Virus record (IMG/VR): IMGVR_UViG_3300034117_001582 | Span: 62,001 to 126,000 of that record | DNA length: 64,000 nt | Reading direction: 5' to 3' (one strand) | DNA from: a virus | Position numbers and translations under genes: made by a program | Notes under the pieces: generated by a model | What the model saw: the letters and a program-made list of their open reading frames with translations, nothing else | Told to the model about the DNA's origin: nothing | The model's database searches: none | Shown here: positions 1 to 62,045 of the stretch, piece by piece | How the letters are laid out: every line of letters begins with the position of its first letter | How positions within the stretch are numbered: position 1 is the first letter of the stretch

Positions 1-750
1 ATATGCGTGAATAAATGCAACATTTGGTTGTTCTTCCATAGGTATCGACCATCCTGTCTTGTCCCACCAATTACCAATGTCTTTTGAGTCATATTGTGCC
101 CAATCTTCCCAAAACCCACTTGTATACCCAAAAAATTGAAATAAAAATGAAAGTGTCGCATCGCACCACTCAATTGGTCTTGAATCTAACTTATAAATTT
201 CCTCCCAAGGCACCTCATCCAATCTATTATAAATTTCTATAAATTTTTCTCTATTAAATATTGTTCCACCACATGCACCATAACTTTGTAAAGAACCCGA
301 AAGACTCCAACTATGTCTTGAGTCGTCAATAACTCCAAACTTATTTTTTAAATATTCATAAAGTTCTGTGGTATATAACGGACCATTCGCACCTGAGATA
401 TCAAACTTTGGTGGCCTTGTAATTTCAAATCTACACCACACATCATCTTCATAATGAATAATCCAATCAACATCTTTAAGTGTTGTTGTACAGGCATCAT
501 AAATTCTTTTTAACCAATCAAGTTGTCCGTTCTCTTTAACAAACACTCTTCCTGAATGTGGATTGTTAATCCCTTGTTGTTCTATCCAAGTATATTCACA
601 ATTAAATTTTTTTGCAACGGGTTCCAATAATGTTGACCCATCCTCATATAACGCAACGGGAATATTGGGATACACCTTTCTTAATTGTTCTAAGGCCTTA
701 TAACACGCAACTAATTTGTGTCCTGATTGATAAAATGCTCCTATTTTCAT
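1..750 (-). CDS. Glycosyltransferase-like protein (3' end outside window)
   Basis: An open frame of 250 codons starts with ATG at 750 and is still open at base 1, so the C-terminus is missing. The N-terminus MKIGAFYQSGHKLVACYKAL and a later IHYEDDVWCRFE segment resemble a GT-A nucleotide-sugar transferase, with EDD as a possible metal-binding DxD-type motif. A GACGGTIFNREKF stretch also fits this fold. The start overlaps the stop of the upstream GlcNAc-transferase-like gene by four bases (ATGA), so the two are probably translationally coupled and act together. The donor and acceptor sugars cannot be read from sequence. The glycosyltransferase assignment comes from motif recognition only. Confidence 0.7.
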   Translation of the reverse strand, partial: MKIGAFYQSGHKLVACYKALEQLRKVYPNIPVALYEDGSTLLEPVAKKFNCEYTWIEQQGINNPHSGRVFVKENGQLDWLKRIYDACTTTLKDVDWIIHYEDDVWCRFEITRPPKFDISGANGPLYTTELYEYLKNKFGVIDDSRHSWSLSGSLQSYGACGGTIFNREKFIEIYNRLDEVPWEEIYKLDSRPIEWCDATLSFLFQFFGYTSGFWEDWAQYDSKDIGNWWDKTGWSIPMEEQPNVAFIHAY

Positions 751-1943
751 AATATTGTATCTATTCTTTGTCCCCATTCACCATTTTTATGATTAACCCA
801 ATAAACCCATTTATGTGGTTTTTCATATGATTCTATGGTTATGTGTAATTTATCTTGATGTAACATCAAGTCTTGTCTATGAAGTACAACCCCGTCTTTA
901 TCTTCTATTCCAATATAAATAAAATTAAAATCTTCAGGTTTTGGTATTTCTAAATTATATTCAAACTTTTCTTTTTGTTTTAAATGCCAATCAGATAAAT
1001 CATTAATAGGCGGGTCGATTCCTCTTATCGTGTCCTCGTGTAACCGTCTGTCTTTAAAGTTAATGCCGGCATATATTTCATAATCTCTATGTGTTCTAAC
1101 ATTACCTAAACCATATATCTCAAGGTCAATATTATTATCCTCTTCTTGCAACATATGTCTTAACCTTCTTTTGGATTCGTTATCCATTTCCCACCATTGT
1201 TTTTCAACAACACCTTTGTTTTTGTTTTCATCATTAAAGTCTGTCCAATGTTTTGTCCTACCTTCTCTTGTATATTCATGCCAAACAACAGTCTTATGTG
1301 GGTGGAATAAATCATATCCTAATGTAAATGAACGAATGGATAAACTAATTTCATCACCAGCAAAATAGATATTCGGATCGTACTTATATTCTTCACAATG
1401 CTTTCCTATTGTAAAAAAGAAGTGTCCACTAACAAATCTTGCAGGTATTGGTTTATCTAAGGTTTCCCAACCTGAAATAGAGTGAGGCCTAAAAAGTATT
1501 GTTCCTCCTGGTGTAAAATTTGACGCAACCATCTTATATGGTTCAGTGTTTAACAACTCATTTGTACTTGGTCTGTACATACCAGCATATGACGTGATGA
1601 TTGGTTTTTCAGAACCGGTTTGTTTCATCATTTCAATTAATTCAACATCCCAATCTTGTAAAAATCTGTGGTGTGAGTCTAATTGTAATGTGTATTCTTC
1701 ATTATCCCATAATTTTTGAATCTCACTACGAGCCCAACAAAGACCTTTACTTAATGACCAATGATAATCTAAAATTTTAAATCTTGGGTCATTTACAAAT
1801 TCTTCCATTGATTCAGTTTCGTCATGTTGCCAACAAATTCCAAATGTTAAATTTTCGGGGTGTTTTGCATTATTAATGCAATCTCTAATAGTCGGTAAAA
1901 GTTCGGGGTCTCGATAAGACGCTATTTGAACAAATATTTTCAT
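747..1943 (-). CDS. GT60-type polypeptide GlcNAc-transferase-like protein
   Basis: The 398-residue protein opens with IFVQIASYRDPELLPTIRDC and continues with GICWQHD, LDSHHRFLQDWD, a GGTILFRP loop, and FAGDEISLSIRSFTLGYDLF followed by VVWHEYTRE. This is the motif order of the Pfam GlcNAc family (PF11397, GT60), whose characterised eukaryotic members transfer GlcNAc from UDP-GlcNAc onto hydroxyproline or threonine of proteins. LDSHH occupies the place of the DxD metal site. The gene lies 50 bp downstream of the fibre gene carrying a (Thr-Pro)14 tract and overlaps a second glycosyltransferase, so glycosylation of the fibre is a reasonable inference. A 7-bp inverted repeat covers its start codon. 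Confidence 0.82.
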   Translation of the reverse strand: MKIFVQIASYRDPELLPTIRDCINNAKHPENLTFGICWQHDETESMEEFVNDPRFKILDYHWSLSKGLCWARSEIQKLWDNEEYTLQLDSHHRFLQDWDVELIEMMKQTGSEKPIITSYAGMYRPSTNELLNTEPYKMVASNFTPGGTILFRPHSISGWETLDKPIPARFVSGHFFFTIGKHCEEYKYDPNIYFAGDEISLSIRSFTLGYDLFHPHKTVVWHEYTREGRTKHWTDFNDENKNKGVVEKQWWEMDNESKRRLRHMLQEEDNNIDLEIYGLGNVRTHRDYEIYAGINFKDRRLHEDTIRGIDPPINDLSDWHLKQKEKFEYNLEIPKPEDFNFIYIGIEDKDGVVLHRQDLMLHQDKLHITIESYEKPHKWVYWVNHKNGEWGQRIDTIL

Positions 1944-1960
1944 AAAGGGTTTTCTTTATG
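1941..1960 (-). promoter_or_regulatory. Inverted repeat covering the GT60 start codon
   Basis: On the mRNA strand the sequence reads CATAAAG, a six-base loop, then CTTTATG, with the ATG start codon forming the end of the second arm. The 7-bp stem is perfect but contains only one G-C pair. It could modulate access to the start codon, or be chance in AT-rich DNA. Confidence 0.3.
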
Positions 1961-1993
1961 ATAAGTTTTAACGATAAAAAAACAATAGTAAAT

Positions 1994-2506
1994 CTAACAA
2001 GTTGGGCAGATACTCAATAGTGTTACGGTACCATAAGTCACACTACTTGTTGTTGGTGTAGTAGACGAACATATACTAAAATTTCCATTACTTAATCCGT
2101 ATGGTGATATGTTTATTTCACCACAACAAGGAGTAAAAGTAACTTCGATTATTCCGTCACCAATATTACCGACCCTATAATAAAGACAAGTAGGTGGTTT
2201 AAATGTTGGAGTAGGAGTCGGTGTCGGTGTAGGGGTTGGTGTCGGTGTCGGTGTAGGGGTTGGTGTCGGTGTAGGTGTTGGTGTCGGTGTGCAGGGTTGT
2301 GGGTCAACAAAAACACAACCAGTTCCATCTATAATTTTTATTTGTAGTAATTCTAAATTTGGAAAATAATTATCACTATCTATCTGTACGGTTGGTGGTA
2401 TCGATGTAACCCCTGAAACATAAAAACAAGAAGTTAAAGTCCAATCACATAAGAATATGTCGTATGGGCTTGTACCGCTAGTTACTCCTGTAATATCTAT
2501 TATCAT
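1994..2506 (-). CDS. Fibre/adhesin-like virion protein with (Thr-Pro)14 linker
   Basis: The protein has about 170 residues in three parts. An N-terminal Ig/SprB-like module (about 1-75) ends in LLQIKIIDGTGC. An uninterrupted (TP)14-T linker follows. A C-terminal module (about 110-170) contains EVTFTPCCGEIN and NFSICSS and resembles Cys-containing modules in two other virion proteins of this window. I start it at ATG 2506, because that gives an ATGA overlap with the upstream stop; the longer TTG start at 2512 is less likely. The N-terminal module is paralogous to the preceding 95-residue protein. The last position in the tail operon suggests a distal fibre or receptor-contact role (inference). 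Confidence 0.7.
   Translation of the reverse strand: MIIDITGVTSGTSPYDIFLCDWTLTSCFYVSGVTSIPPTVQIDSDNYFPNLELLQIKIIDGTGCVFVDPQPCTPTPTPTPTPTPTPTPTPTPTPTPTPTPTFKPPTCLYYRVGNIGDGIIEVTFTPCCGEINISPYGLSNGNFSICSSTTPTTSSVTYGTVTLLSICPTC
2006..2188 (-). repeat. Cys module copy 1 (C-terminal module of the TP-linker protein)
   Basis: This stretch encodes about 60 residues bounded by cysteines, with core VTFTPCCGEIN and then ICSS. It shares spacing and key residues (aromatic-T-x-C-x-G, then I-C) with modules at 38485-38673 and 50425-50607. It is the most divergent of the three. Confidence 0.45.
2204..2290 (-). repeat. (Thr-Pro)14 coding tract
   Basis: The tract has 29 codons alternating Thr and Pro without interruption: 15 Thr and 14 Pro, by codon count from F at 2203 back to C at 2291. 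The DNA repeats GGTGT(C/A)-type hexamers, so copy number could change by slippage. Such Pro/Thr linkers are extended and are typical O-glycosylation substrates. Confidence 0.9.
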
Positions 2507-2790
2507 AACCAAACTAATGTATCTCCACTTTCCGTGGTTATTATTAACGAGTTTTCCGTTATTATGAAGAACGTATCAAATGGACAATAAACCATTTTAA
2601 AAGTGAAACAACCCGTACTATCAACTATTTTGATTAGTAATGTCTGAGCAGTAGAAAAGAAAGTATTAAGAGTAAATGTTCCGCCGGTAGGTCCCAATAA
2701 AAAACAATTATTCATGTATTCGTCACACACATAAAATTGATAGGGAGGTGTTCCTCCTGTCTGTCCCGATATTATTAGTTGATGGGCCAT
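2503..2790 (-). CDS. Small single-repeat tail/fibre protein
   Basis: The 95-residue protein starts at ATG 2790, which overlaps the TAA of the upstream gene by one base. A TTG start at 2805 is possible but less likely. The pattern GQTGGTPPYQFYVCDEYMNN, then NCFLLG and LLIKIVDSTGC, is a single SprB-like Ig module. It closely parallels residues 1-75 of the downstream TP-linker protein (TSPYDIFLCDW, LLQIKIIDGTGC), so these are tandem paralogues. There is no signal peptide or membrane segment. I infer a virion surface or fibre-tip component from its position. Confidence 0.65.
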   Translation of the reverse strand: MAHQLIISGQTGGTPPYQFYVCDEYMNNCFLLGPTGGTFTLNTFFSTAQTLLIKIVDSTGCFTFKMVYCPFDTFFIITENSLIITTESGDTLVWL

Positions 2791-5099
2791 TATGGTGTTC
2801 CACAAACAACATCATAAACAATACTTAACCCTAATGAAAAATCCGCGTCAGATAAAGGGTCACTATCACCACTACATTTTGACGTAATAGTTAAAGTATT
2901 GTCTAATAAGTTTATTTCGTAACTACCTATTTCAGTTATTCCCGAAAGAATACCATCAATTGTTGACTGCCAAACAGTATCTTGTGGTACATCATTTAAT
3001 GTTGTTGCAGTATAAAACGTTTCAGTAAAGGCAGAAGTAAACGCAGAACCACTAATTGTTAAATTACAAGTTAATACCGCAGAGTTAAAAACACAATCAG
3101 TATAACCTGAGGTAATATCAATAAACCCTTCATTTAACATTTCACTTAAACCTCTTTGGTTACCTGAAGTGGTTATAAATGTGTTTTTACAAAGTGTATA
3201 TAATTGGTACGATACAACATTTGTACCTATACATGTTATTGTTGCATATTGTGTATTTGTACATCCTGATGAATCTGTAGTGATAACAGAATACGTGTCG
3301 GCAGATAAATTAGTTGCCGTAGCCCCCGTTTGTCCATCTGACCAAAGATAAGTAAATGTTGGTTCACCATCATAAATTACAACGGTAGCAGTGCCATCAT
3401 TACTTCCCGTACAGTTTGTTGTTGAAATAGCAGTTTGTAATGACCCACCGGTGCTAATGGTAAACCCTGTACTAACCGCACATCCATCATAATCTGTTAC
3501 GGTTATAGTATATGAACCTGCAGGTAAATTATTATAAGTTATCGCACTTAAAGGAGTATCAATAATAGTATTACCATTACTTAAAACAAAATCTAAAGGT
3601 GATGTAAATCCGGTAGACACATTAATAATAGCAATACCATTTGATTGACTACAGGTTGACCCCGTTGTTGTCGCACTTACAGAGAATTTACTATTAGATG
3701 TTACGTTTAAAGTTGTTGAATAAACACAATCACTACCACTACCTGATATTACCAATAAGTAATTATCATTAGGTAAGTTTGTAAAATTATAATTTTGGTT
3801 TTGTGAAACGTTTCCATATACGGTACCACTAGATTGCCCTGAAAGACTATAAACATAAAACCCTCCAACACCGGCAATAGTCACATCAACCGCACCATTA
3901 TTTAAACTACAATTTGAGTTTGTTATAGTGGTCCCAACAACACTAAACCCATTAACACTAGTAACATAACCATTTAACGTGGTTTGACAGAAATTTGCAT
4001 CCCTAACCAAAACGGTATAGTTTCCAGTGGATAAATTACTAATTGTAAAGGTGTCAGATAAAGTATAACCAACCTCACCTGTAGAAGCCGAATAATAAAA
4101 TGGTACGGTACCCCCTGAAACGGTAAATGTAAGTGAACCATCAGAAGAAAAACACGTAGGATTTACTGCCGTTAAGTTTGCTAAACTAATTGGATCAGCA
4201 ACACCAATAACATCTGATTTAGTTGTTGAACATCCTAAACTATCTGTAACTGTACAAGAATAGGTTCCTTGAGTTAATCCTGTTATGATTTGACCCGTTC
4301 CACCATTACTCCAAAGATATGTATAAGGTCCCGTACCTGTTAATCCCGTTACCGCCAATTTACCGGTTGTTATTACACAATTAGAGGTATTAACCTTCCA
4401 AAAACCAAAATCAACGGCAGTACTTGCACTTATAACCGCATTTTCTGTATTTGCGCCTGTCGAGCCATAATCATATACCGTGGCATAATATATACCAACA
4501 CCAAGCCCATTAAAATTATATGGTAACGTTGAGGTTGTTTGAACATCATATATGACGTTATCTTTATAAAGTAATATATTATACGGCGAACCTGTAGTTG
4601 TCGCGGTGACTTGTAAAAAACCATTATCTAAACCACAAGTAGTACCGCTAGCATTTATAATATTAGCCTCAAAACAAGACGTAATACCGACATTTATATA
4701 TAGTTCGTCGTTTTGAAGACCCAAGGTATCGTTAAGTCTAAACACATATGTACCACCGGTTAATCCGGTAAAAGTCATAGTAGTTGAGCTTGTTTGTGCG
4801 GTTAAGGTACCAGGAATTATACTATCAATAGTATAAGGTGGAACACCACCAAAAGGGGTTATCGCAACATTACCTGTAATAGAGTCACATACTCCAGCCA
4901 CAGAAAACGAATAACTTAAACTACCTTGTATACAGTTTTGCGAACAAGTCTGACCGGTAGCGATATAAACACCATATGATGTTCCACTATAAGATTCATC
5001 CAAACAAATACTAACACCTAAAGATGCTCCCGCCTGTAGTAAACCACAACAGTCAACATAACTATATACACCATTAGTTAATCCCGATACACAAGCCAT
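2790..5099 (-). CDS. SprB-repeat tail fibre/adhesin protein
   Basis: The 769-residue protein is almost entirely tandem Ig-like repeats of the SprB type (PF13573-like). About seven units share the pattern C-x-G-x-V-x-GG-x-PY-x-Y-x-W-S-x-G, then LTQGTYSCTVTDSLGC. The clearest units are around residues 255-300 and 560-605. SprB repeats are characteristic of Bacteroidetes gliding and surface adhesins. The C-terminal ~120 residues match the C-terminus of the upstream 978-residue protein. The start overlaps that gene's stop by one base. There is no secretion signal, consistent with assembly on the virion. Host binding is inferred. Confidence 0.8.
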   Translation of the reverse strand: MACVSGLTNGVYSYVDCCGLLQAGASLGVSICLDESYSGTSYGVYIATGQTCSQNCIQGSLSYSFSVAGVCDSITGNVAITPFGGVPPYTIDSIIPGTLTAQTSSTTMTFTGLTGGTYVFRLNDTLGLQNDELYINVGITSCFEANIINASGTTCGLDNGFLQVTATTTGSPYNILLYKDNVIYDVQTTSTLPYNFNGLGVGIYYATVYDYGSTGANTENAVISASTAVDFGFWKVNTSNCVITTGKLAVTGLTGTGPYTYLWSNGGTGQIITGLTQGTYSCTVTDSLGCSTTKSDVIGVADPISLANLTAVNPTCFSSDGSLTFTVSGGTVPFYYSASTGEVGYTLSDTFTISNLSTGNYTVLVRDANFCQTTLNGYVTSVNGFSVVGTTITNSNCSLNNGAVDVTIAGVGGFYVYSLSGQSSGTVYGNVSQNQNYNFTNLPNDNYLLVISGSGSDCVYSTTLNVTSNSKFSVSATTTGSTCSQSNGIAIINVSTGFTSPLDFVLSNGNTIIDTPLSAITYNNLPAGSYTITVTDYDGCAVSTGFTISTGGSLQTAISTTNCTGSNDGTATVVIYDGEPTFTYLWSDGQTGATATNLSADTYSVITTDSSGCTNTQYATITCIGTNVVSYQLYTLCKNTFITTSGNQRGLSEMLNEGFIDITSGYTDCVFNSAVLTCNLTISGSAFTSAFTETFYTATTLNDVPQDTVWQSTIDGILSGITEIGSYEINLLDNTLTITSKCSGDSDPLSDADFSLGLSIVYDVVCGTP
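2797..3160 (-). repeat. Shared C-terminal domain, copy in the SprB-repeat protein
   Basis: The segment includes MLNEGFIDITSGY, ETFYTATTLNDVPQDTV and DNTLTITSKC, and ends near IVYDVVC. It aligns through its length with the C-terminus of the adjacent 978-residue protein, with conserved FYT, DVPxxT, a hydrophobic-x-NTL strand and terminal Cys. Confidence 0.7.
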
Positions 5100-8035
5100 T
5101 AGTTACAATTAATTTCAATGTTTATTCCAATATTTAACGACAAAGTACTATTTGTAAAGTCATCATAACAAGTTGAGTTACTAACAACTAATGTATTACC
5201 AGCAAAATAATAATTAAGACCGTGTTGATATAATGTTTCCAACTTTAGGTCTATCGCATCTAAAACTTGTGTCTGTGTTGGCACATCACCTAACCCATAC
5301 CCTGTGTAGAATTGTTCTTGAACCAAAACATTATTATCTAATCTACAGTCAATATACCAATCTGAAACAATACTATTTAAATCACATTGACTTTGTGAAT
5401 AACCACTATAACTCAATAAATCGCCTAATAAAAGTTGTAACATTTGTGAAGGTTCTCCTTGTAAATTACATTTTAAAGTTTGGTCGATGCAATCATAAGC
5501 AAATGGTTGTCCATTATATTTACAAGGGATACAAAGCACAGGAATAAATTGACATCCTCTTTGTCTTCTCCATACAAATTTTTGTCTGTGGAAAATTGTA
5601 TTTTCCATTTTTTGACCTGTCAGCCACAAAGTAGTACCAGGAACAACTTGTTCCAATAATCTTTGCCAATAATCACCAATACCTAAGGTATAGTCTATCA
5701 TTTTTTGATATGTGTACTTATTTGAAGGTATACCTACAGTTTGCTCTGATTCAAGGTATCTCCAAAATATCGATTGTAAGGTTGGATAACCACCCGTTTT
5801 ACCATCAAATATTGTTTGTCTATTTCTTACATTAATAAAATTATTATAGAAATCTTGCGCAAATTCAAAGAATGTCTTCTCATTTGGTTTTGGATTAATA
5901 TATGTCCAATCAACATTACCAGGGTAAGGATATGGAGCAGTCATACCAGAATTAGGTATTGGGTAATTATACTTAACCGACATATCCCATATGTCGTAAG
6001 TAATCCCCTGACCCATATTTGTGTATAACTCAATATTTTTAGAGTTAATAACTAATTTATCATCATTAACTTTATAATTAACACCATTTGTATTTGCACC
6101 ATCTCTTCTAATTCCAGTATCAGTAACCGCCCAAGATTTTTGATTATCAGAGACCTTAGTTAAAGTATATCCAACCCCCATATTAGGGAATTGTCTAAAC
6201 TTATCCATATATTCTTGTCCAAAAGTAAAAGGGTTTAAAGTGGTAACTAAGAATGGGTTTGATGGGTTAAAAGACGAGTTTGACGGGTCAGAAACTTCAG
6301 GAGACCTATGTTGTGGGCTCTTTTCAAACCAACCAGCACCTTTTTGGAAAAAGTCAGTTTCAGTTGCTTGCGGACTACTTGGATATCCGTCACTATCAAT
6401 TCCATAATCAACTGAAGTATTATTAACGGGCCTAATGAAACCACTTGTGGTATAACCAGTATACGTTACCCCTTGAATACTAAAAGTGTTGTTAGGGTCA
6501 AATGTTGGTTGTTCAACGTATTGAGTTCCTCCTGAAATTCTAGCGTATTGTTGGTCAAACTTATTAACATTAATTTTAGTATCGGCAATATAGATAACCT
6601 CATTAAACTCTAAAAGAGCCTCAGGAGCACCAACAAATCTCATAATATATTCTAAAGATTTTCTTGTTCCTTTACTTTTGAACATATAAGCGGCATTCAA
6701 GATAAGGTTCCTATAGTATTGATAATTTAACTCTGTCGGCGTTTGACTTTGAGCTTGTCCAGTAAATATTTGTTTTGGTTTTGTATTAAATACGGATTCT
6801 AAAAACCCTTCGTTGGTTATTGGTGATATATCAGTATTTATCCCTAATGTTGATGCTAAGTTTGTTAATAATTGTGATGGTATATCGTTACCAACTTGAT
6901 AATTAACTGAATTCATGTAAGCCAATGAGTCAATGAACTTTCTAACCTCATCAAAACTTCTACCATAAATTTGTAATACCTTTTCTATTTTTTGGTCAGA
7001 TGTGTCAAACTCTTTAATCGACCCTGTGATTAAAAACCTACTAATTAGGTTTGTTTTATACTCATCTAATTTTTCAGCAATAAATTGTAATTCATTTAAA
7101 TACTCACTAAATTTATTACTACTAATATCAATATTCCAAACTCGGTTTAAAGGCCAAGTTAAATTTTTAACGTACATAGTATATTTACCATCCGCATCGT
7201 AATCAGGATATTTGAAAGTTGATGTGTATTTTGGAAATGAAGTCCTGCTAATTAAAAAGTCCTCAACCTCATCAAAGTTTTCATCAAATATTTGTTGGGT
7301 TATTGTGGTGTTTGGTTTTATTATTAAGGTACTTGTAGTTGCACTTGCCCCACTAAACGGGTCACCCATTACAGTAACAGTAACCGTTCCACCAGACATA
7401 TTTAATGTTGGCGTAAAATCCGTAAATTTATATTCTGTTTGTAAATCTTCAAAGTATAACGCATAACTTTCAAAGTTAGGGGTTAACGCCCTAATCTGAC
7501 TTATTGGGTAAGGCTTAACCTCAATGTTTCTTTTAGCGTTTATTGAAAAATCAACATCAAACGGATTTCTAAATAATGAAGTATCCATGTCGAATGTTGT
7601 CTCATCATCTTTAGAATCATAAACAATATTTTCAGCAGTATTACCATAAAATAATCCTGATTGTTGTCTACTAAAAACTTCAATTGCCGCTGGAAAATTA
7701 TTAATGATTTTAATTGCCGATGTGGATATTCTTTTTGAAAGTGAACCATATAAAGAAAAACTCGTGATTTCCGATATGTCAAAGTTTGGATATACTTTAA
7801 AATTCTTTTCTATTATTCTTTTTGCCTGTTGTATGTCATCTATTTTAAGATTTTCCAAAGTATAAGCATCTGAAAATATGCCGGTATCAAACTTTCTATT
7901 TGCCTTTTCATATATCGCAGTAGTGAATTGGAAATTACCCTGCGTAAGTCCCCCACCGTCGGTTATTTGTAAACCGACCAAGTTGTCAGAAAAAGTCTTG
8001 ACACCACCAGGAGGAAAAAATATTTTATTAGCCAT
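5099..8035 (-). CDS. Large tail/baseplate-associated structural protein
   Basis: This 978-residue protein has no enzyme motif I can identify. The N-terminal third (PPGGVKTFSDNLVGLQI onwards) and the middle, with the segment MFKSKGTRKSLEYIMRFVGA, look like a phage structural protein. The C-terminal ~115 residues (EQFYTGYGLGDVPTQTQ, GNTLVVSNSTC) are homologous to the C-terminus of the SprB-repeat protein encoded next. The gene overlaps both neighbours by one base at TAATG junctions, so it sits inside one operon. The shared domain may dock both proteins to one site or to each other (inference). The exact tail position is unknown. Confidence 0.6.
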   Translation of the reverse strand: MANKIFFPPGGVKTFSDNLVGLQITDGGGLTQGNFQFTTAIYEKANRKFDTGIFSDAYTLENLKIDDIQQAKRIIEKNFKVYPNFDISEITSFSLYGSLSKRISTSAIKIINNFPAAIEVFSRQQSGLFYGNTAENIVYDSKDDETTFDMDTSLFRNPFDVDFSINAKRNIEVKPYPISQIRALTPNFESYALYFEDLQTEYKFTDFTPTLNMSGGTVTVTVMGDPFSGASATTSTLIIKPNTTITQQIFDENFDEVEDFLISRTSFPKYTSTFKYPDYDADGKYTMYVKNLTWPLNRVWNIDISSNKFSEYLNELQFIAEKLDEYKTNLISRFLITGSIKEFDTSDQKIEKVLQIYGRSFDEVRKFIDSLAYMNSVNYQVGNDIPSQLLTNLASTLGINTDISPITNEGFLESVFNTKPKQIFTGQAQSQTPTELNYQYYRNLILNAAYMFKSKGTRKSLEYIMRFVGAPEALLEFNEVIYIADTKINVNKFDQQYARISGGTQYVEQPTFDPNNTFSIQGVTYTGYTTSGFIRPVNNTSVDYGIDSDGYPSSPQATETDFFQKGAGWFEKSPQHRSPEVSDPSNSSFNPSNPFLVTTLNPFTFGQEYMDKFRQFPNMGVGYTLTKVSDNQKSWAVTDTGIRRDGANTNGVNYKVNDDKLVINSKNIELYTNMGQGITYDIWDMSVKYNYPIPNSGMTAPYPYPGNVDWTYINPKPNEKTFFEFAQDFYNNFINVRNRQTIFDGKTGGYPTLQSIFWRYLESEQTVGIPSNKYTYQKMIDYTLGIGDYWQRLLEQVVPGTTLWLTGQKMENTIFHRQKFVWRRQRGCQFIPVLCIPCKYNGQPFAYDCIDQTLKCNLQGEPSQMLQLLLGDLLSYSGYSQSQCDLNSIVSDWYIDCRLDNNVLVQEQFYTGYGLGDVPTQTQVLDAIDLKLETLYQHGLNYYFAGNTLVVSNSTCYDDFTNSTLSLNIGINIEINCN
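5102..5450 (-). repeat. Shared C-terminal domain, copy in the 978-residue protein
   Basis: This encodes the C-terminus from about MLQLLLGDLLSYSGY to the terminal NCN. It aligns with the C-terminus of the following protein (FYT, DVPTQT/DVPQDT, NTLVV/NTLTI, closing Cys). Confidence 0.7.
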
Positions 8036-17635: not shown

Positions 17636-19474
17636 TTATGAGAAATCTACAGTTGTTAGGTTTTTAACACGTACCTTGATGTCTTTATTTGTGTACCTAA
17701 CTTGATAGATTTGTGTCGGTTCAGAATAGATAGTGTCATCTATTAATTGAATCTGTCTTGTTGTTTTATCGACATATCTTTGTGACGTTTCAGATATTGA
17801 GTATTGACCACCAACTTTATTAAATACTTTAAGATCGGATAGTGTGGATACTCCAGCAGTGTTTTGAATTAATCTTCTAACGTCAGATACATTAACATTT
17901 TGACCTAATTCTCTATTTTCAGGAGCCATATAATTTGAAATACCGTTAATAATTTCGGTAATGACTTGTCCTTGATTTCTATCTGATTCTAACACAACAT
18001 AAATATCATACTCCAAATCAATTACTTTTGCAACATCAATAGAAATGTAGTCATTAATCATTCTATATTTTGAAAGATATGTTGCCAAATTACTTTTTAA
18101 GTTGTTAGAAACGGTTTGTGTTAATTTTCCAGTATCGTCGTAAGATAAAATTTGAATTGTAATTTTATTATTATTTTCAGTAATAGAGACCTTTGCAGGT
18201 GCACCAAACTTACCTGGCATTGTATCAATTAAAGATTTATAGTCATTAATCGTTACCGCCCTTTTTTGAGCAGAAAAGTTAAATGTTACCATATTTCTAA
18301 CTTCTTCTGTTGATGGGGGATTTGCACCCCCAATTGCCGCAGTAACATTATTAACACTTAAAGATTGTCTTACATTTGTATTAATACTATCGGATGGTCC
18401 ATTAATTGCAAAATCTAAAGTACCGATTTGATTAATAACCCCAACACCAACATTTGAACCTAAACCACCACCAATTCTATATTGAACAAATATGGTTGTG
18501 TTTGGTTGAACGGTTAATCCTAATCCTATGTTATTTTGGTAGTTTGCCAAATCTAATTTAATTCCGTTTTTAGCAAAATCAGTTAGTTGTTGTTGTGGTG
18601 TTGTGGTACCTCCACCAAATTGTATTTTTAAGAACCCTTCAGGTGTGTATTCGCTGATGAATCTATTTTCAGTTTTAATATATTTCCCAACTTTAACACC
18701 AGCATTGTCTGTTGGTTTTGTTGGGTCTTCGATAAATACCGTATCTTCAGCCAATGCGTCAACCTCATACCAACGACTTGTTGAATTAACAAAGTCAGAA
18801 TAAGTTGGAACATTAGGGTAACTTGTCCCTTCTTTTTGTATTATAGATGTAATACCTAAAACGTTTCTTTCAGGTAAGAAAAAATTAAAGAATGGTACAA
18901 CGTCAGATGAGTTAATAACTCTTTTAAACACTTTAGTAGTTCCATTAACAACCACTTCCCTTTTTGTGATTACATAATTAACAATCTTATTATTTGCATC
19001 AAAGGTTGGTATCTTTGTTCTATTAACAAAACCTTCAGGGTTATATTGTGTACTAAAGTCGATATCATATACTGTTTCAAATACTGTTCCTCCTCCATTA
19101 AATTGTGACCCTGCTCTTAAAATACCTAAATAACGGTAATCTTCACTATCCCCAAGTGGTGGTACCACAATAGAAACATCAACAACAGCAACAGATGGTC
19201 GATATCCTGGAATTTTTAATCCGTACGTTCTTGCGATATTATAAATAGATGATCTTTGTTGTGCGTATTGAAGTACGGTTTCTTGCACACTCCTATCTAT
19301 TTGATAATTTAAATTGTCGGCTACGGCAGCATTTAAATCCATTAAAACTGAAAATATCGAAGCGTCGTTAAAGTTTTGTACTAACTCAGGATAATACTGT
19401 TTAGTATAATTTATTAACTCTTGTCTTATACCTTCAAAATCCCTTTCAGTATAATTTATTTTTTTATTAGCCAT
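17636..19474 (-). CDS. gp6: Baseplate wedge protein gp6
   Basis: The 612-residue protein begins MANKKINYTERDFEGIRQEL and continues INYTKQYYPELVQNFNDASIFSVLMDLNAAVADNL. This is the characteristic N-terminus of T4-type gp6 wedge proteins (baseplate J-like family; T4 gp6 is about 660 residues). The C-terminal half (NMVTFNFSAQKRAVTINDYKSL) matches the J-like core. In T4, gp6 dimers form the ring joining the wedges around the hub. It follows gp25 with a two-base gap, a gene pairing usual in contractile tails. The start ATG is unambiguous. Confidence 0.92.
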   Translation of the reverse strand: MANKKINYTERDFEGIRQELINYTKQYYPELVQNFNDASIFSVLMDLNAAVADNLNYQIDRSVQETVLQYAQQRSSIYNIARTYGLKIPGYRPSVAVVDVSIVVPPLGDSEDYRYLGILRAGSQFNGGGTVFETVYDIDFSTQYNPEGFVNRTKIPTFDANNKIVNYVITKREVVVNGTTKVFKRVINSSDVVPFFNFFLPERNVLGITSIIQKEGTSYPNVPTYSDFVNSTSRWYEVDALAEDTVFIEDPTKPTDNAGVKVGKYIKTENRFISEYTPEGFLKIQFGGGTTTPQQQLTDFAKNGIKLDLANYQNNIGLGLTVQPNTTIFVQYRIGGGLGSNVGVGVINQIGTLDFAINGPSDSINTNVRQSLSVNNVTAAIGGANPPSTEEVRNMVTFNFSAQKRAVTINDYKSLIDTMPGKFGAPAKVSITENNNKITIQILSYDDTGKLTQTVSNNLKSNLATYLSKYRMINDYISIDVAKVIDLEYDIYVVLESDRNQGQVITEIINGISNYMAPENRELGQNVNVSDVRRLIQNTAGVSTLSDLKVFNKVGGQYSISETSQRYVDKTTRQIQLIDDTIYSEPTQIYQVRYTNKDIKVRVKNLTTVDFS

Positions 19475-53853: not shown

Positions 53854-54588
53854 ATGGAAGTTAAATATGTAGGGGGCAAACCAACAAAACACAAGTCTTT
53901 TCAAGAAAGAATTAATTCAATAGAACTTAAATTAAACCTTGAGTCAACATCCAAAAAAAATATTATAAGTGAGATTAAAAAAATAAGTATAGATAAACTA
54001 CCTTATGAATACGATTCGTTAAGTAGTTTTATTGATAGTGAAACTATGGAAACTCACTACAAAAAACACTACAAGACGTATGTTGAAAAATTAAATGTTG
54101 AATTAGAAAAGGTTAAAGGTCCTGATTTGGAATTGGAAGAAATAATTGAAAAAATTTCAAAATTCAATCAGGTTGTTAAAAATAATGGTGGTGGGGCTTT
54201 TAATCACGCATTATTTTGGAAAATGATGTCACCAAAAAAACAAACACTAAAGGATCCGTTACTTTCAAAAATAAAAAAAGAATTTGGGTCTTTTGAAAAA
54301 TTTAAAGAAAAATTTGAAGAAGAAGGTAAATTAAGATTTGGTTCAGGATGGGTTTGGTTAATTTTAACTAAAAATAATAGATTAAAAATTATAACAACAG
54401 CAAACCAAGATAACCCATTAATGAATACAGAAAAAGAAAATGGATATCCATTATTAGGTTTGGATGTATGGGAACACGCATACTATCTTAAATATAAAAA
54501 CAAAAGAGACGAATACATTAGAAATTTTTGGAAAGTCGTTAATTGGGACTTTGTTACTGAAACATTTGTTTCCCAATCCAAAAAATAA
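53854..54588 (+). CDS. Mn/Fe superoxide dismutase with N-terminal extension
   Basis: The 244-residue protein has a complete SOD fold after a ~45-residue charged extension ([17 protein letters not shown]). Metal ligands are H68 (METHYKKHY), H118 ([11 protein letters not shown]), D204 and H208 ([20 protein letters not shown]). TTANQDNPL with Q185 and GGGAFNH rather than a Gln there favour Mn specificity. It would convert superoxide to peroxide and oxygen. The gene lies 12 bp after the SNF2-type helicase and before the neck gene. No signal peptide is seen, so it acts in the cytoplasm, or in the virion if packaged (speculative). Confidence 0.9.
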
Positions 54589-60110: not shown

Positions 60111-62045
60111 TTATTCAAAATAAGTGTCGTCTATGTAAATAGGGTCTATATAATCATTAGTAGTAACCGGTGTTAAACAATTTGGACACCAATAATTAAA
60201 TAAATTAAATTTATCTTTTAATATTCTAAAATTATGTTGTACTTGTGGACTACTAAATGCTTCGGTATACATTCTAAATTGAGATAACCCCCCCATAAAG
60301 GAACCACCAAAATTCTGTTCTAAAAGTATGTCCGTTGATAATCCAGAGAACGTTGTTGCCGATAAAATATTGTTTGGAAACAATTCAGGGTCTTGTTTGT
60401 ATGGGCCATTAAGTAATGTTGATGCGGAAAAAATTAAATGGTCATGTAACCCTTGAGTTCCCCCACCCCAAGAAATATTAAAAGGTACTCCAATTTGTTT
60501 TTCCTTTTCGGTATTTAATTCTCTTGGAATTATTTCTTCAAAATTTTCAATAACCATAAAATAGTATCCATTAATGTAGAGTTTTAATCTACCCATTCTA
60601 TACCAAGCATCATCAAACCATTTTCTATCAAAAACCACTCGATAAACTTTATCTTCTTTTGTTCCTCCCGAATGTGTTTCAGGTGGCATTATTAAATTAT
60701 AAGATGTGTTATTTAATATTGATTGGTACGTAACTTGTCTAATATCGTTTAATCCTCCTAAATTTAATAAATCACACTCCTCTATTGTGGTATATCTTTC
60801 AAAAACCGCAGTAACCATTACCCACCTATCATCTGCAATAGTATCACATATATAATCACATACCTCATAAATTGGGGGGCTACAAACTTCAGTTATCGTA
60901 TATCCTGTTTGAAATGTTAACCCTGTGGTCCCACATGAACCTGTGGTAACACAATCACCAGTAATAACTATAGTTTTAACACAAAGTCTTGGATCCGCAG
61001 CGCACCCACTAAATCTAATTGATAGCGCGTTTGATAATACGTCAAATTTAGGGTCTAATGGTGGTATAGGTATTTGTTCCGTACATGTACCACACCCACA
61101 CCCAATTTGGTGAACTGCAGTTGTTGCACTTTGTGGATATAGTGTAACACAATTTGCGTTAGTGACGCCAGTGTCTGAACATTTACAACTTTGTAAACTT
61201 GTAAGTCCTGTGGTTGCTCTTGTGTAACCACTATCCGATTCTGGATTTCCATCGGCAAAATGATAATATTTGTTTTCCGCTCTTGTACCAAAATAAAAGA
61301 AAGTTCCGGCATTTTGTGGATATCTTGTGTTTAAATATTCTTCAGTTGTGTAATCTATACCGTACTCATCAAAAATTCTTGGTTTTATAACCGTTTCCAT
61401 AGTCCAACCTTTATTCATTCTTTCAGGAAAAACCTCATAGTCATAACCAAATAATTTATAAAACCCTTGATAAAACCCACCATAAAGTTCTTGATAATAC
61501 CCTACCGTTGCATCATTTTTAGAAACTATATTATATTTTGCATTTTTTGGTCTACCGGAAAACACTTCATTTGGCGGTAAAGTATAACCCGTAACCGTAT
61601 GAAGTTTCATTCTTCTATCATAATAGTGTGGATGAAATTTATAATCGTCCCTTATACCCATAGTATAATATAAAGTTTCACCGGTCATACCAGTATATAA
61701 ACCATTGTCTGTGGCAACTAAACCAACATCACAAGCACCTGTAAATGCAGAATAACAACTTAAATCTAAATTATTTGGGTTATAATAATTTTTTGAAACT
61801 AAGGTTGACCCCGAATAAAAATTATTAAAAACCATAGTTAATTGTGGTGAGGATCCGGTAAAGTTTAAATCTAAACTAATTGGTAGTCTGGTTCCGTCAT
61901 TAACACCAATAATATCATTTGAAAACACAACTTCTTCATCGTAGTCCCTTTCATCTGCAGCCAAAGTCAAATCAAAATATTGTCTTGAATTCAATAATGA
62001 TTTGTATTTTGGATAATAATATGTATTTAAATTTTGAGTTGGCAT
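60111..62045 (-). CDS. Cys-rich virion protein with LamG-like C-terminus
   Basis: The 644-residue protein has a Cys-rich centre (about 285-410: SCKCSDTG, GCGCGTCTEQIP, CVTTGSCGTTG, YEVCDYICDT). Its C-terminal half, with YRMGRLKLYINGYYFMVIEN and FMGGLSQFRMYTEAFSSPQV, resembles a concanavalin/LamG-type jelly-roll ending in the usual L-x-x-x-R-I-Y-x-x-x-L-S motif. A fibre or surface carbohydrate-binding protein is likely (inference). It is divergent from the 62097 gene, with a TATTTATC motif 10 nt before its ATG. Confidence 0.6.
   Translation of the reverse strand: MPTQNLNTYYYPKYKSLLNSRQYFDLTLAADERDYDEEVVFSNDIIGVNDGTRLPISLDLNFTGSSPQLTMVFNNFYSGSTLVSKNYYNPNNLDLSCYSAFTGACDVGLVATDNGLYTGMTGETLYYTMGIRDDYKFHPHYYDRRMKLHTVTGYTLPPNEVFSGRPKNAKYNIVSKNDATVGYYQELYGGFYQGFYKLFGYDYEVFPERMNKGWTMETVIKPRIFDEYGIDYTTEEYLNTRYPQNAGTFFYFGTRAENKYYHFADGNPESDSGYTRATTGLTSLQSCKCSDTGVTNANCVTLYPQSATTAVHQIGCGCGTCTEQIPIPPLDPKFDVLSNALSIRFSGCAADPRLCVKTIVITGDCVTTGSCGTTGLTFQTGYTITEVCSPPIYEVCDYICDTIADDRWVMVTAVFERYTTIEECDLLNLGGLNDIRQVTYQSILNNTSYNLIMPPETHSGGTKEDKVYRVVFDRKWFDDAWYRMGRLKLYINGYYFMVIENFEEIIPRELNTEKEKQIGVPFNISWGGGTQGLHDHLIFSASTLLNGPYKQDPELFPNNILSATTFSGLSTDILLEQNFGGSFMGGLSQFRMYTEAFSSPQVQHNFRILKDKFNLFNYWCPNCLTPVTTNDYIDPIYIDDTYFE

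Follow-up and report, generated by a model that had tools for sequence, protein, structure and literature searches.

The left edge of a 64,000-nucleotide stretch of viral DNA (the window; positions 62001-126000 of IMG/VR record IMGVR_UViG_3300034117_001582, an uncultured virus record totalling 291,867 bases) carries two overlapping glycosyltransferase genes set between two genes, A and B, whose products contain threonine-proline (TP) tracts. Based on sequence comparison, we consider it probable (roughly 0.7) that this cassette is a phage module for mucin-type protein O-glycosylation, whose enzymes act on the TP proteins and start on threonine (Thr) of virion TP linkers. An initial annotation of the window had proposed that the phage decorates its own TP proteins. 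This idea gains from the confinement of the tracts, their co-occurrence with the enzymes, enzyme swapping in relatives, a similar enzyme pair in another phage (L026) and a predicted structure that resembles N-acetylgalactosamine (GalNAc) transferases, but the 170-amino acid (aa) gene A that it named as the partner is not the constant one. The features of the cassette are as follows.

Record 60285-61907, minus strand: protein B, 541 aa, adjoining but outside the window, with tracts of 11, 8 and 11 TP
1..750, minus strand: GT2, the second enzyme, 265 aa from the ATG at 750; 3' end outside the window at record ~61956; four-base ATGA overlap with the GT60 gene
747..1943, minus strand: GT60/PF11397-type glycosyltransferase, 398 aa (PF11397 E 1.5e-66; phrog_24687 E 1.5e-103)
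1994..2506, minus strand: TP-tract protein A, 170 aa from ATG; from its sequence, a small SprB-like/immunoglobulin-like domain, (TP)14 and a ~70-aa C-terminal domain
2207..2290, minus strand: uninterrupted (TP)14 tract followed by T, the proposed acceptor in protein A

Thr-Pro tracts flank the enzyme pair

Across the whole record the (TP)5 pattern gave 27 overlapping matches, all on the minus strand at 60832-64290, and its reversed control pattern gave none. Every tract of (TP)5 or longer falls in A or B, the genes that flank the enzyme pair. The GT60 gene has the same direction as A and starts 50 bases downstream of the A stop, and ~50 bases separate the GT2 stop from the B start. The (TP)14-T linker, the GT60-type gene next downstream and the four-base overlap with a second glycosyltransferase gene all stand as initially annotated, the tract at the coordinates listed above. 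Codons of the (TP)14 tract vary (ACA, ACC or ACT with CCG, CCA or CCT) and form no perfect DNA microsatellite; Tandem Repeats Finder detects 6/18/24-bp periodicity in that region. The mixed codons within tracts favor selection at the protein level over a DNA repeat alone.

In protein B the three tracts are set between folded, cysteine-containing domains. We rejected A as the constant TP partner because many relatives have a counterpart of A without TP. By sequence comparison among relatives, the constant partner is B, the larger gene with three tracts; it lies outside the window and was missed initially.

The open reading frame of A has an upstream TTG at 2512 as an alternative start. Its N-terminal domain is found in relatives as separate ~95-aa genes without TP. 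Such one-domain SprB-like proteins (GGTSPYDI..CD...) occur in several copies per phage and were seen at window 1994-2787 and at L060:7996-8280; in protein A the domain is fused to the TP linker and a second domain.

The two enzymes

The GT60 protein matches PF11397 with 225.7 bits against a cut-off of 21, over profile positions 98-350 of 352 plus an N-terminal part, and passes the curated cut-off across the catalytic domain; phrog_24687 is annotated 'glycosyltransferase'. D89-S90-H91, W98-D99, P190, G196, W221-H222 and R226 are invariant in the enzyme and 27 relatives (to ~38% identity), over which the motifs LDSHHRF (containing D89-S90-H91) and WHEYTR (221-226) are strongly conserved. The DSH would be the DXD-type metal motif. 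The predicted structure (mean pLDDT 93.9) resembles GT-A polypeptide transferases. The best 49 PDB structure matches are all GT27 polypeptide GalNAc-transferases (E from 7e-12), with GalNAc-T2, -T4 and -T12 as the closest solved folds. GT27 enzymes take Thr or Ser with nearby proline (Pro) as acceptor. Since the TM-score is only ~0.5 (identity ~13%), the likeness to GT27, a different CAZy family, is at the level of fold, and neither the single sequence nor a profile of the phage enzyme had a sequence match among PDB chains. From profile match and predicted model, we assign the enzyme to the PF11397/GT60 family of GT-A fold glycosyltransferases.

In this family, Trypanosoma cruzi TcOGNT1 makes GlcNAc-alpha-Thr (GlcNAc, N-acetylglucosamine) in mucins, to which other sugars are added afterwards (PMC9472816; the mucin precedent is likewise in PMC3769586). 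By analogy the first sugar here may be alpha-GlcNAc, a tentative assignment. A different route is suggested by Gnt1, a GT60 member of Dictyostelium/Toxoplasma that acts on hydroxyproline in Skp1: the TP prolines would be hydroxylated first and the hydroxyproline then glycosylated by GT60. A search of the 292-kb record, which is possibly incomplete, for the 2-oxoglutarate-Fe(II) oxygenase family PF13640 gave zero matches at E <= 0.1 (other hydroxylase families were not searched), and for this reason we regard the hydroxyproline route as highly improbable.

The label GT2 stands here for 'second' enzyme, not for CAZy GT2. A YEDDV motif is invariant in this protein and 13 relatives, and the predicted model (pLDDT 71) is GT-A-like, in line with its original description as a glycosyltransferase. 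The best PDB matches are to the GT6 family (E 3e-8, TM-score ~0.45). Pfam and PHROG searches returned no family match; because the likeness is one of fold only, an assignment to GT6 was rejected and we call the enzyme GT-A-like. We lean towards a role for it in extending the first sugar over independent action.

Enzymes and tracts co-occur within the phage family

To avoid choosing loci by their enzymes, we fetched 70 loci using a conserved neighboring protein as bait.

5099..8035, minus strand: conserved neighbor, 978 aa, neutral bait in the co-occurrence test (70 loci, alignment)

All 15 bait loci with GT60 contain TP tracts, and tracts are absent from 46 of the 55 loci without GT60 in the stretch. 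In 39 non-truncated family loci that lack the enzymes, 719 kb contain 0 TP tracts. Of the nine loci with tracts and no GT60, seven end before the interval that holds the enzymes and two (L195, L199) have a GT29-type gene in it. The co-occurrence is significant by Fisher test (P = 2e-9; P = 1.5e-7 for loci >=20 kb only), uncorrected for relatedness. In two further records, G023 and G028 (L092, L100), short TP-bearing B-like genes are relocated, and PF11397 is still present elsewhere in both.

Enzymes are swapped beside a persistent tract

We defined the slot as the interval between the small-domain gene and B. In relatives it contains GT60 alone, GT60 with GT2, GT60 with HtrL/YibB (PF09612, E 2e-23), GT60 with GT34 (PF05637, E 3e-22), or GT29 (PF00777, E 2e-22).

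2503..2787, minus strand: small-domain paralogue of the protein A N-terminal domain, 94 aa, in the same structural row (sequence comparison with relatives)
L231:19563-20354, L246:17545-18336 and L042:11227-12015: HtrL/YibB (PF09612), directly after GT60 in the slot
L195:18381-18965(-), L199:18412-18999(-) and L230:16062-16649(-), opposite strand to the slot row: short GT29 sialyltransferase-type (PF00777) genes that occupy the GT60 slot within structural regions of tailed phages

When slot states are placed on a B tree computed without the TP tracts, at least six changes are needed. Wherever B is full length it retains TP tracts, and these sit at equivalent points between corresponding domains, although in some lineages another domain has taken the place of the third tract. 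Variation of the enzymes beside a persistent tract is expected if the acceptor is fixed and the slot serves to vary the glycan built on it. L195 and L199 combine a TP-bearing B with GT29; in L230 the GT29 gene is at the equivalent place, in a locus that is cut inside B. PF09612 is of 'unknown function' in Pfam, and its occupying a slot filled by glycosyltransferases in other relatives suggests that YibB is a glycosyltransferase.

The association recurs in other phages and in bacteria

On a different phage backbone (L026), a GT60 and GT2 pair converges on a protein of 974 aa that is no homologue of B and contains three tracts (8, 5 and 6 TP). We also sampled contigs by a (TP)8 DNA pattern alone and, as a control, by the reversed pattern (3.06 vs 2.51 Mb, 50 records each). 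PF11397 was found in 10/50 of the (TP)8 contigs vs 1/50 of the controls (P = 0.008), and in 7/47 vs 1/50 (P = 0.028) once three family members were removed. In six of the ten, five of them outside the family, PF11397 lies <=2.3 kb from the tract, where ~0.2 would be expected.

Starting instead from GT60 genes, a TP-rich gene lies within 1.5 kb at 5/20 distant viral loci (near vs far, P = 0.02) and at 7/77 bacterial loci (P = 0.07). Near distant GT60 loci the crude TP density is 34 per Mb and does not clearly exceed the 16-27 per Mb of controls, so support at distant loci is limited to the distance-based test and to the contigs sampled by TP pattern. The initial annotation had suggested looking for PF11397 genes beside TP genes; the contig sampling bears that pairing out, and most distant GT60 loci have no TP neighbor. 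Since so many GT60 genes lack one, the family must also have other acceptors. We conclude from these comparisons that the association outside the family is real and not universal.

Adjacent TP- or SP-rich genes (SP, serine-proline) are seen in the distant phages L037, L047, L048 and L050 and at bacterial GT60 loci including L372, L384, L390 and L397. The bacterial cases hint at surface mucin-like proteins made with GT60-family enzymes. The Thr/Pro-rich bacterial neighbors include L390:6507-7649(-), L397:6944-7396(-), L372:2918-4105(-) and L375:10042-10518. The L390 open frame has an apparent signal of the twin-arginine translocation (Tat) type.

The Xanthomonas jumbo phage XacN1 is a cultured, distant relative. 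It encodes a GT60 homologue, ORF334, with 38% identity, and the sole (TP)5 tract in its 385 kb falls close to the C-terminal end of ORF325 (3313 aa).

AP018399.1 203370-213311 and 222135-223508 (L453, L370): XacN1 TP-tract giant protein and GT60

ORF325 directly follows two baseplate wedge genes and lies 9 kb from ORF334. Proteomic analysis found at least two XacN1 glycoproteins, for which the authors suggest the phage's own transferases as the cause (PMC5852040). Thus XacN1 shares with the phage studied here a GT60 homologue, a TP-tract protein beside baseplate wedge genes and, in its case, reported glycoproteins; it differs in the 9-kb distance between enzyme and TP genes and in a second enzyme that is GT9. 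The passages of PMC5852040 on the glycoproteins do not link them to TP tracts. RAS14, an XacN1-related phage, lacks (TP)5; its large counterpart of ORF325 has shorter runs of SPTPSPTP/TPTPTP. XacN1 is a cultured phage in which the proposed module is directly testable, as it is in E. coli.

The GT60 genes of XacN1 and RAS14 share a region of mixed content with a carbamoyl transferase gene, and some distant GT60 genes lie in glycan/methyltransferase gene clusters without TP. These loci would fit enzymes that modify DNA or host surface glycans, for receptor alteration or superinfection exclusion, with coincidental TP neighbors; DNA and O-antigen modification are the best-known roles of phage glycosyltransferases (discussed in PMC12619734). 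However, the GT60 precedent is a polypeptide acceptor and the nearest folds are polypeptide transferases, not DNA glucosyltransferases. The cassette also has no transmembrane or lipid-carrier partner genes, and its position between structural genes is conserved. We consider such targets quite improbable.

The cassette lies in a tail and baseplate region

The window's left edge is a minus-strand row that encodes, in order, the 978-aa protein, a 769-aa SprB-repeat protein, the 94-aa protein, A, GT60, GT2 and then B. Past B, outside the window, are a 95-aa small-domain protein and more large structural-type proteins.

2790..5099, minus strand: SprB-repeat protein, 769 aa, in the structural row (PF13573 E 2.9e-11)
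17636..19474, minus strand: baseplate wedge protein, which sets the region in a tail/baseplate module (PF04865 E 2.8e-6; phrog_219, baseplate wedge subunit, E 8e-22)

Some relatives of the 769-aa protein have TP tracts. A, B and the enzyme genes share their direction with structural genes near the baseplate wedge gene. From this position we judge it likely that A and B are virion components, and a tail or fiber role may be supposed. For either protein a receptor-binding fiber role, initially assigned to A, is a supposition from the tail/baseplate location. A profile of B gave only low-complexity TP-like matches among PDB sequences, and a profile of the 978-aa bait gave zero.

Sheath, baseplate wedge, gp32-like, DnaB-like and family-B polymerase genes are all present in the record, and on these sheath, wedge and replication genes we classify the source virus as a myovirus-like jumbo phage. 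B, the 978-aa bait and a 735-aa neighbor had no useful match, and the first 3 kb of the window no near match, among 50,697 phage records; a cultured close relative is therefore absent from that set. Scans of the cassette for sigma-70 promoters and terminators gave no more matches than shuffled sequence. The window also contains a complete Fe/Mn superoxide dismutase gene at 53854-54588(+) (PF02777 E 1.4e-41), here in a jumbo phage.

Proposed mechanism and opposing evidence

We propose that, in the host cytosol, GT60 would transfer a sugar to Thr hydroxyls in the TP linkers of A and B. By family precedent the sugar would be GlcNAc, taken from host uridine diphosphate (UDP)-GlcNAc and alpha-linked. 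The variable enzyme (GT2 here; HtrL/YibB, GT34 and GT29 types in relatives) would then add a further sugar. The glycosylated Pro-rich linkers would become stiff, extended and shielded spacers between folded tail-tip or fiber domains. Stiffening, protease resistance and masking from host-surface or phage-binding factors would be the consequences.

Several results weigh against this proposal. PF11397 is absent from 40/50 TP-tract contigs, these contigs being fragments, and a TP-rich gene is lacking within 1.5 kb at ~15/20 distant viral and 70/77 bacterial GT60 loci. Much of the co-occurrence within the family is one inheritance, and the presence or absence of GT60 and TP may reflect a single gain or loss. 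A and B have no recognized virion homologue. No GT60 was seen in the loci with GT29 alone; if GT29 is unable to add the first sugar, an initiating enzyme must be encoded elsewhere. The TP-only contigs and the partly inherited association would also suit passive linkers, that is, TP tracts that are stiff and unmodified, with glycosyltransferases carried as cargo in a tolerant intergenic slot and directed at other targets; morons do enter phage structural operons. However, passive linkers would not lead one to expect that the tracts are gone in relatives without enzymes, that the slot is filled by enzymes of four distinct types and by no other genes, that enzyme and tract adjoin again in unrelated phages and bacteria, or that PF11397 is retained in both records in which the TP gene has moved. 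We therefore regard passive linkers as unlikely and favor glycosylation of the TP proteins.

Relation to known systems and significance

The GT60 alpha-GlcNAc-transferases TcOGNT1 and Skp1 Gnt1 share with the phage enzyme the PF11397 family and Thr-rich or Pro-rich protein acceptors. In contrast to these enzymes, which work in the Golgi or the eukaryotic cytosol, the phage enzyme is phage-encoded and would be cytosolic, it is proposed to act on a virion protein with TP repeats, and the enzyme and acceptor genes adjoin and vary as a cassette. Freeman et al. 2023 (cited in PMC12619734) described glycosylation of virions by phage enzymes in mycobacteriophages, in which phage glycosyltransferases decorate capsid and tail tube subunits at their C-termini. 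As described there, that system is like ours in using phage-encoded enzymes on the phage's own structural proteins; our proposal differs in its dedicated TP linkers, other structural proteins and GT60 enzyme. The moraphages of PMC12619734 are large Bacteroidota phages from aquatic settings that have four core families of glycosyltransferase. By description (large size, aquatic origin, several glycosyltransferases and Bacteroidota as predicted hosts) they are possibly a related kind; the paper names neither PF11397 nor TP nor threonine. In the literature searched, in which subscription papers are thinly covered, we found no description of GT60 or of Thr-Pro tracts in a phage, in agreement with the initial annotation, which knew of no phage example of the pairing. 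Self-glycosylation of phage virions is thus already known; what is new here is the GT60/TP pairing, the proposed type of acceptor and the modular enzyme slot.

If the proposal is correct, tailed phages would have a mucin-like strategy in which Thr-Pro linkers are O-glycosylated by enzymes of adjacent genes. Phage TP tracts, a widespread class, would then have a function, and the presence of GT60, GT29, GT34 and YibB-type genes within phage structural operons would be explained. A soluble, cytosolic glycosylation pair, simple in sequence and made up of one enzyme and one TP peptide would be available for glycoengineering. Swaps of the second enzyme would allow fast variation of virion surface sugars. 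At even odds, the system may be a widespread and modular 'phage mucin', with unrelated phage lineages and some bacteria pairing interchangeable cytosolic glycosyltransferases (GT60, GT29, GT34, YibB and an undescribed GT-A family) with surface proteins that carry Thr-Pro tracts; the resulting O-glycosylated linkers would differ in their outer sugars between phages, like an antigenic coat.

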